DNA of 64,000 nt from Alphaproteobacteria bacterium (lineage in GTDB: Bacteria > Pseudomonadota > Alphaproteobacteria > SP197): NCBI GenBank assembly GCA_016869675.1, contig VGDP01000003.1, positions 62,001-126,000 on the forward strand, given 5' to 3'. Position numbers and translations under genes: made by a program. A model generated the notes under the pieces. It did no database searches. It saw only the letters and a program-made list of their open reading frames with translations, and was not told the DNA's origin. This document shows, piece by piece, positions 46,225 to 51,799 of this stretch. Each line of letters opens with the position of its first letter. Position 1 is the stretch's first letter.

Positions 46225-47703
46225 CTAGGCCCCACCCACGGGCTCGCCGATGCGCGACCATTCGGCGGCGGCGGCGCGGTTGGCGACACGGTTGGCCAGG
46301 GCCAGCACCACGTTGGGATCGAAGATCTGACCGCGATCGGTCATGAGCCGGTCGACCGCGTTCCCGACGGCCAAGCCCGCGCGCCATGAACGCGGGCTGA
46401 CCATGCCGACGAAGGCGTTGGCCACGGCGATGATGCGCGCGGGCAGCAGGATGCCGTCGCCCCGCAGGCCGTCCGGCTGGCCCTGGTCGTCCCAGCGTTC
46501 GTGAAGCTGGCGCAAGGTGGCGGCGACGGGCCCGTCGAACTCGACGCCGGCGACCAGATCCGCACCCATGCGGAGCGATTCGCGCACTTGGCCGAGTTCC
46601 GCCTCGGTCAGCCGGCCGCCCCGCGTCAGCGGCGCCTCGGGCACCAGGATCTTGCCCAGGTTCATGAGCTGGCCGGCGATGGTGACGGTCTCGACTATCG
46701 AGGGCTCCAGCTCCATCTCCTCGGCGATCGCCTGGGCGACCGTCGAGACCCAGGCGGAATGGTCGGCGGCGAAGGGGTCGCGCCGGTCGATCACCTTGAC
46801 CAGGGTGGCAACGAGCTGGCGCATCAGGCGCACGCGCTTCTCGCGCGCCTCGACCACCGGTGTCACTTCCTCGGCCACAAGGAGGACCCGGTCCACCGTG
46901 GGCTCGGTGCCGAACGGGACGAACTGGGCGCGCACCACCGCCTGGCCCTTCGGGCCCGCCAGGTTCAGGGTCGACTCGACGGTCGCTTGCCCGGCGCGCG
47001 CCTGACGCGCAGCATCGTCGATGACGCGCGCGGGCAACGGCCCGAAGGCGTTGGCCACGGGCTTGCCGGTCAGGCCCGCGGCGTCGGACCCGGCGAGCGC
47101 GCTGAGTGCGCGGTTGACCCAAGAGACCCCCTGGTCGGCCTCAAGCACGGCGAGGCCCACAGGCTGGCTTTCGGTGACCAGTTCGAGGAAGCGGTTCTGG
47201 ACGTCGAGGCGCACCGCCAGCTCGCGCGCGCGCCGGGCCGCCAGCGCCTCGCGCCGCGAGGTGCCGTGTCGCCACGCGGCGACCAGGATGGCGGCCAAGC
47301 CAACGATCACCAGGAGGGAGATCGCCACCAGGGCGGTACGACGCCCGCGCGCCGCGGTCGCCAGAAGGAGGTTGCGCAGGTACGTGCGCTGGGCCGCCTC
47401 GTCGGTAACCCCGGCCGCGATGGCGCCGGCGACCCGGGCGATCCAGTAGGGCACGATCTGACCCGCCGGAAATCGACCTCCGGCCCACAGGCCGAGCGTG
47501 ACCGCCGGGTTGAAGTGGCCGCCCGAGATGTGGCCGACGGCGTAGGCCATGGTCAGCACGGTCAGGCCGAAGGCGAGCGAGGCACCGGCCAAGCCGATGC
47601 CGAGATCGGGGACGGCCGCCGCGAGCACGGCGCTGCCGCAGCCGCCGAACATTAGCCAGAACGTGCCGAGGAACTCGGCACCCAGTTTCCGCGTCATGGA
47701 CAT
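46225..47703 (-). CDS. Fusion of half an aquaporin Z to a PAS/degenerate HD-GYP protein
   Basis: The 492-residue frame opens with a near-canonical AqpZ N-terminus ([19 protein letters not shown], first NPA at 65-67) that breaks off at about residue 98. It passes in frame into [13 protein letters not shown], a membrane helix (about 121-144), a PAS-like region and an HD-GYP-like domain (from about 290). HD is replaced by MN (LMNLGK) and GYP by GQP, so c-di-GMP hydrolysis is unlikely. Second aquaporin half and the sensor N-terminus are both missing. This looks like a deletion fusion. Confidence 0.82.
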
Positions 47704-49764: not shown

Positions 49765-51096
49765 TCAGGGCGCACGTGCCAATGTGTCGTAGAGGTGATC
49801 GCACGGCCCGGGCGATGGGGCCGCCGAGCCCGGCAGGTTGTCCATCAGGAACCGAAGCACGTGGAGACCGGCGATAACCTTGATCGCATCTTTTGGTACG
49901 TCACGCTCCGCGAGCGCCGGAGCCAGGAGAGGCAACCCCGTCGCGTCGAAACCGAACTGCTCGTAGCCGTCGAAGTCGGAGCCAAGCGCGATGAATCGTG
50001 CGTCAAACTCCTTCTTGATCATGAAGTCGACGCGATCGGCGAATCGTCGTGCGTAGGTGTCATCGACATCTTGGGGAGCGGTACCCTCCTCGATGATCGG
50101 ACACAGGGCGTCGTCCCACAGGCCAGGCCCGATCAGCCCGCCTGTGTTCGCGATGAGATGCGCGTCCTCAACTTTGAGATTCCGCGCCGGGCTGCACGCG
50201 TCGTCGTCGGGTGCCGGATTGATTCCCGTGTGCGACACGACGATCGGAAAGGACCCCTCCACGCGGAGGTCGATCACGGCCCGAATGAGCTCCTTCGACG
50301 CGTGGGCCAAGTCGATGATCATGCCCCGCCTGGCCGCCTCGACAATGACGGCCTCGCCCGCATCCGTCAAACCACGCTTGTGCTCTTTCCCCTCGTGCTG
50401 GGAACTTCCGTATGCGTTGTCGAAGAAGTGCACGAGCCCCAGCAGAACGAACCCGCTTTTCCTCAAGACTCCGATGCTCTCGGCACCATGTGTCAGCGCC
50501 TGCGCGCCTTCCAGTCCGAGCAGGCCACCGATCACCTCGGGATCCTTGAGCTTGCGCTCGCAGAACTCATCGAGCGTCGGCCGATCGCGCACGAGCACGA
50601 GCTTGTTGTCCGGGTCGGCCGCCAGGTTCGCGAGCCTATGGGCCTGATGCAGCGCGAGCGCCTCGTAGTCGAACCAGGTCTCGGGCGGCCACAGAGCGCT
50701 GATCGCCAGCGCGCTGATCATGTTGGGATGCTCGCCGCAATCCTCATTGTCCTTGCACCAGGTCTTGTTCGTTGGCACGCCGAACACCTGGAGCCCGACC
50801 CCGCCCTGGCGCAGCCGCAGAATGTCAGTGTGGCCGACGGGTTCGCGCGCCATTGGCGCGTCCACGCCGATGTCACGCAACGCCAGCAGGGGGTCGGCAT
50901 GGATATCGGCGAAGAACAGGCGCGGTCCGGTGTTGGGCGCATCGCCCCACTGGAATGGTCGGCTGCCTTCGACCGTGTTGTAGCGTTGTTCGACCAGTCC
51001 GGCATCCACGGCACACGCACCAAGTGCCGCGACGACAGCAAGCGCCACGACCACGATCCAGCAACGGTGCCCCTTGGCCAAACTGCCCCGCGGCAC
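49765..51096 (-). CDS. Membrane dipeptidase-family (M19) lipoprotein
   Basis: Encodes 443 residues. A signal peptide ends at a lipobox (ALGAC, Cys about 28). Metal ligands include DIHADPLL (HxD), LGLEGAQAL and VSHTGINP. The family cleaves dipeptides, often with a D-residue. It has less GC-rich codons than neighbouring genes, which may indicate separate origin. Complete. Confidence 0.82.
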   Translation of the reverse strand: MPRGSLAKGHRCWIVVVALAVVAALGACAVDAGLVEQRYNTVEGSRPFQWGDAPNTGPRLFFADIHADPLLALRDIGVDAPMAREPVGHTDILRLRQGGVGLQVFGVPTNKTWCKDNEDCGEHPNMISALAISALWPPETWFDYEALALHQAHRLANLAADPDNKLVLVRDRPTLDEFCERKLKDPEVIGGLLGLEGAQALTHGAESIGVLRKSGFVLLGLVHFFDNAYGSSQHEGKEHKRGLTDAGEAVIVEAARRGMIIDLAHASKELIRAVIDLRVEGSFPIVVSHTGINPAPDDDACSPARNLKVEDAHLIANTGGLIGPGLWDDALCPIIEEGTAPQDVDDTYARRFADRVDFMIKKEFDARFIALGSDFDGYEQFGFDATGLPLLAPALAERDVPKDAIKVIAGLHVLRFLMDNLPGSAAPSPGPCDHLYDTLARAP

Positions 51097-51148
51097 GCCG
51101 AGTTTCGTAGACGAGCGCCCTGGGACTCGGCAGCGGCTCGTTTAGGAG

Positions 51149-51799
51149 CTAGACGATGTCGAGGATGCTGGCGCCGAACTGCTTCGGTTGCCAGTCGTGG
51201 GGCAGGCTGGCGTGCTTGCTCGCGCTCGACTTCAGGACCGCGCGGAACGCCTCGACGATCTGCCATGGTCGGGCCTGGTACTGGTGCAGCGCGACATCGT
51301 GATGAGCGATCCACAGCGCCGCCGCCCCCGAGACATGGACCGTGGCGTAGGACGCGCCGTCGCCGTCATTACCGTAAACGAACTGTGGATGGGGCCAGGA
51401 GCCGATGGTCGTCGCACGCCAGATTTCGACCGCGGGCGCCGAAACGTCGACCCACTCGCCGCGGCTCGACCCGGTCCACGGTCGTCCACGGTTGGTGACG
51501 CCCGCGATGACCCCCGCCGCGATGATCTTGCCGAGCGTGATCCAACCGTCTGGCGCCGACTTCTGCATGAGGATCGCGAGCACGTCGAGGTTCATGTAGT
51601 CAGCCGCGGCCCACGCCACGACCAAAGCGATCGGCGCCCTGATCTTAAATTTTATGAAGACATCGACCAGAGGGCCCCATTCGAACAGCACGGAAAGTGC
51701 ACGTTCGAGAAACATCGCCATGACGACGATGATGATCAGAAGGCTGATCAACCGCTCGAAATTCGCCTGCTCAAAAATATTCAACGAAGACAGTTCCAT
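51149..51799 (-). CDS. Chimera: small membrane protein N-terminus + subtilase C-terminal fragment
   Basis: Of 216 residues, 1-98 have hydrophobic segments (about 17-32, 56-68, 88-100) and resemble small holin-like membrane proteins. From about residue 99 the sequence becomes the last third of a subtilisin-type S8 protease: GRPWTGSSRGEWVDVSAPA and GASYATVHVSGAAALW, with the catalytic Ser at about 150. The Asp and His of the triad are missing. The joint lies in IIAAGVIAGVTN, where both parents have similar sequence. It is A/T-richer than its surroundings. Confidence 0.7.
   Translation of the reverse strand: MELSSLNIFEQANFERLISLLIIIVVMAMFLERALSVLFEWGPLVDVFIKFKIRAPIALVVAWAAADYMNLDVLAILMQKSAPDGWITLGKIIAAGVIAGVTNRGRPWTGSSRGEWVDVSAPAVEIWRATTIGSWPHPQFVYGNDGDGASYATVHVSGAAALWIAHHDVALHQYQARPWQIVEAFRAVLKSSASKHASLPHDWQPKQFGASILDIV

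Follow-up and report, generated by a model that had tools for sequence, protein, structure and literature searches.

Deletion-fusion pseudogenes are a general class in bacterial genomes, in which neighbouring same-strand genes are joined by an internal deletion and then degrade further. The open reading frame at 51149-51799 on the minus strand of the window (the whole 64,000-nt stretch of DNA analysed) has the same features and no difference of principle from this class; what sets it apart is only which two genes took part. This 216-residue frame is very probably a pseudogene that arose by one deletion within a two-gene operon, and deletion fusion with later decay is an ordinary kind of event. 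The second system for comparison is the subtilase family, Peptidase S8 (PF00082). The C-terminal part of the fusion, with its Ser motif GASYAT, fits the profile and the intact relatives, whereas the N-terminal two-thirds, which carry the catalytic Asp and His, are absent and the tail is cut by a stop.

Membrane protein joined to a subtilase remnant

The preliminary description of this locus had read the frame as a membrane protein fused to a subtilase fragment, and the PF00082 match and the separate parental genes of two relatives (G141 and G286) bear this out. Residues 1-100 of a small membrane protein run on, without a change of frame, into the final third of an S8 subtilase, as listed below.

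51500..51799, minus strand: N-terminal 100 residues of the membrane protein (homology to the intact 171-residue gene of G141 and 151-residue gene of G286; hydropathy)
51496..51503, minus strand: fusion joint, ATC GCG GGC / GTC ACC, placed with an uncertainty of about 4 nt (comparison with the two parental genes in L014 and L015)
51152..51499, minus strand: C-terminal fragment of an S8 subtilase with catalytic Ser150 only (PF00082; identity to the G286 subtilase)
51149..51151, minus strand: premature TAG stop within the subtilase remnant (in-frame homology runs on past it)
51080..51148, minus strand: subtilase tail left untranslated behind the stop, LLNEPLPSPRALVYETRRAAGQF, in the same frame (aligns with the subtilase C-termini of G286, G141, G012 and G013)
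49765..51096, minus strand: intact M19 membrane dipeptidase, directly downstream (PF01244, E 2e-34; in G012 the subtilase gene has an M19 gene beside it)

The first 100 residues had no Pfam match. From about residue 98, the frame matched the C-terminal part of the Peptidase_S8 profile (positions 168-274 of 288, E 3e-6), and with residues 300-432 of the subtilase of G286 it shared 48% identity (E 5e-28). The fusion keeps the Ser motif, GASYAT, with the catalytic Ser150 (GTSxA-type, near the C-terminal part). In the alignment with intact relatives, the fusion lacked any equivalent of the catalytic Asp (DTG) and His (HGT) motifs; in the G286 subtilase the triad Asp and His are D146 and H193, and both were invariant across the intact subtilase set. 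The claim that Ser is the sole triad residue left was thus correct. Without the triad Asp and His the fusion product cannot be a working protease, and its membrane part lacks the conserved C-terminal part. The membrane part ends just before the conserved GSKGA..LFQGVLGFGK part, and its third hydrophobic stretch is cut.

Intact parents and the joint

The first 100 residues were searched against 385 genomes of the class to which the window belongs. The membrane part was a separate gene in G141 (52% identity, E 1e-17) and G286 (39%, E 1e-16), and G188 carried a remote relative. The membrane-protein family is rare, with members in 4 of the 385 genomes, the window's own included. G141 and G286 are metagenome-assembled Alphaproteobacteria from families other than that of the window. 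In both, the membrane gene is directly followed on its strand by the gene for an S8 subtilase about 445 residues long. In G286 the start codon of the subtilase gene (ATG) overlaps the stop codon of the membrane gene (TGA), and in G141 at most 10 bp separate the two genes. The parents are therefore neighbours, so arranged that a single deletion could produce the fusion, as expected from the proposed origin. The intact membrane genes run beyond the joint position into GSKGA..LFQGVLGFGK and then a Pro/Ala-rich tail, both absent from the window. Nor does the window have the roughly 300 residues, with the DTG and HGT motifs among them, that the intact subtilases carry ahead of the joint. Because no intact membrane-protein/subtilase operon was found in the genus or family of the window, we infer the ancestral state in its lineage from relatives that are 39-52% identical.

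When the joint of the window was placed on these relatives, it corresponded to a single deletion of 1,088 bp (G286) or 1,144 bp (G141). The joint reads ATC GCG GGC GTC ACC, and the corresponding codons in G286 are GCG GGC GGC AGC in the membrane gene and GTC GGC GGC GTC ACG in the subtilase gene. The preliminary description had both parents reading roughly IxAGV here, which did not hold: the intact membrane proteins read LIAGGSK and VVAGGSK, the subtilases AIGVGGVT and TVAAGGIT, and what the two have in common is a short Gly-Gly motif. Provided that the lost parents used the codons of these relatives, about 4 nt (GGCG) would be common to both at the joint. Such a short GC-rich similarity may have helped the event. 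However, a crossover within the aligned GGC GGC would have put one further Gly codon into the joint, and random joints between the two genes shared at least 4 nt in 2.8-4.0% of cases; on these grounds, recombination at short similarity is only possible.

The surroundings were also compared within the family. In G012, which belongs to the window's family, a related subtilase gene has an M19 gene (31% identical) as its neighbour; there, the M19 gene comes first and the subtilase gene second. The subtilase gene of G012 (L016 4913-5950) is broken by a TAA stop, and that of G013, another genome of the family, is apparently frameshifted near the Ser motif (L017 6090-7058). Since these copies are also broken, the subtilase gene is apparently undergoing decay in this family. 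The GC3 of the M19 gene and the fusion (49765-51799) was 0.78-0.84, lower than the 0.89-0.93 of those neighbours that were measured in the correct frame, and this segment was perhaps acquired by transfer.

Missing sequence, premature stop and alternative readings

To account for the missing part, the full G286 subtilase was searched against the window's own genome. Only residues 300-432 were returned, in the window and with one TAG inside; residues 1-299 were not found elsewhere in the assembly, which is rated 100% complete. This negative search speaks against a move of the missing part to another place in the genome. The frame halts at the TAG after ILDIV and the same frame goes on as LLNEPLPSPRALVYETRRAAGQF, which could be aligned with the C-terminal ends of four related subtilases, that of G012 (LLRAQLPAPSKLVYEKRKAADE) giving the best match; in these alignments, 0-1 of 2000 shuffles scored equally high. 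This stop, with in-frame homology beyond it, is a second lesion and marks the frame as a decaying pseudogene.

The fused two-part protein was not found in 61 relatives, in the 385 genomes of the class, in 398 genomes drawn from the phylum or in the genome_contigs collection, which was scanned for close relatives. The whole fusion protein had no match at all among phage records, and only its subtilase part matched plasmid records. A conserved two-domain family was considered and rejected, with no member among the relatives, the genomes of the class or phylum, phages, plasmids or viral contigs. The preliminary description would have been contradicted by the same protein conserved in unrelated genomes, and the fusion was in no other genome searched.

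An assembly artefact, in which the chromosome keeps a complete operon that the assembler collapsed, is improbable. It would suit a draft genome of 97 contigs with a second fusion, AqpZ/HD-GYP, about 4 kb away. But neither the missing subtilase part nor the missing AqpZ part was found on any other contig, and the remnant bears an independent nonsense lesion; because an assembly join alone would not make such a stop, the TAG argues against an artefact as the whole explanation. Moreover, besides the two fusions, 19 of the 20 other window proteins scanned had a Pfam domain and none was a comparable two-family chimera, so fused genes look not to be widespread within the window. Assemblers do not join on overlaps as short as about 4 nt, and the common sequence deduced at the joint is far too short for such a join.

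The second fusion is the minus-strand frame at 46225-47703, whose first 99 residues are 83% identical to the AqpZ of G003 and are followed by a PAS/HD-GYP protein. A search of the window's own genome did not recover the remainder of this AqpZ, and an AqpZ paralogue on C89 is distinct (only 33% identical). The likeness of the two joints claimed in the preliminary description stood at the peptide level, with GVT in both, and failed at the DNA level (GCGGGCGTCACC versus GCGGCCGGGGTTACC). Intact G003 AqpZ reads GVTDKRA further on and the fusion reads GVTDEAA at its joint; because of this resemblance, the joint may be more complex than one cut and have formed in more than one step. The AqpZ/HD-GYP frame looks like the result of an event similar to that at 51149-51799.

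A functional new protein with a membrane-anchored, non-catalytic subtilase-like domain is the least likely reading. The frame is kept over the joint and its GC3 (0.78 and 0.84) is still coding-like, but the fusion has neither the catalytic Asp nor the catalytic His, its third hydrophobic stretch is cut, the stop truncates a tail whose homology runs on past it and the fusion was not found elsewhere. The coding-like GC3 counts against a pseudogene, yet a recent pseudogene would show the same.

For the preferred reading, a pseudogene left by a deletion, three ancestral genes would have stood in a row: one for a small membrane protein, one for an S8 subtilase starting almost directly after it, and, downstream of these, one for an M19 dipeptidase. 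Probably in a single event, a deletion of some 1.1 kb would have taken the end of the membrane gene and the first two-thirds of the subtilase gene. The reading frame would have been kept by chance, so that the remains are read as one frame, and a nonsense change, before or after the deletion, would have cut the subtilase tail. Nothing would be expected to depend on the product.

The intact gene pair and its neighbours

The intact membrane gene was also examined in its neighbourhood. In G141, the gene ahead of it encodes a lytic transglycosylase (PF01464, E 3.5e-17), and in G178 a similar transglycosylase precedes the subtilase, with no membrane gene. Genes for an SLT lytic transglycosylase, a small holin-like membrane protein and an S8 subtilase recur as neighbours in different alphaproteobacterial families, with all three genes in G141 and two of three in G178 and G286 (L014 2819-5344; L060 280-2499; L015 4456-6239). 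Furthermore, a viral contig with a Mu gp27 gene carries a relative of the membrane protein (41%) directly after an endolysin-like gene (L054 4486-5390), which itself matched at E 0.078 only. The transglycosylase neighbour in G141 and the holin position in the Mu-like viral contig suggest a holin-like role for the membrane protein.

Phage holin and type 10 secretion cassettes (holin plus cell-wall hydrolase) are the closest described systems for this arrangement. The membrane family seems to have about three hydrophobic stretches (by Kyte-Doolittle only), and its gene likewise follows a lytic transglycosylase gene in G141 and an endolysin-like gene in the Mu-like contig. It differs from these systems in its profile matches. 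The intact relatives had no match among Pfam and PHROG holin profiles, the best holin profile match of the window N-terminus was at E 0.22, and filing the membrane protein as a holin is unsupported by profiles. A transglycosylase remnant in the window's own genome was not found at E 0.001, in a search run without a positive control. As a tentative and rather doubtful proposal, the lytic transglycosylase, holin-like protein, S8 subtilase and sometimes M19 could form a chromosomal cassette, undescribed so far, that serves export or lysis and stems from the lysis genes of phages; of this cassette the window would hold the inactivated remains. The open-access literature searched contained nothing on the membrane-protein/subtilase gene pair.

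These results indicate that 51149-51799 should be annotated as a pseudogene remnant and not as a new two-domain protein. The intact operon is more interesting than the fusion and is a modest lead: the fusion points to a rare membrane-protein/subtilase gene pair, accompanied in one genome by a cell-wall hydrolase.
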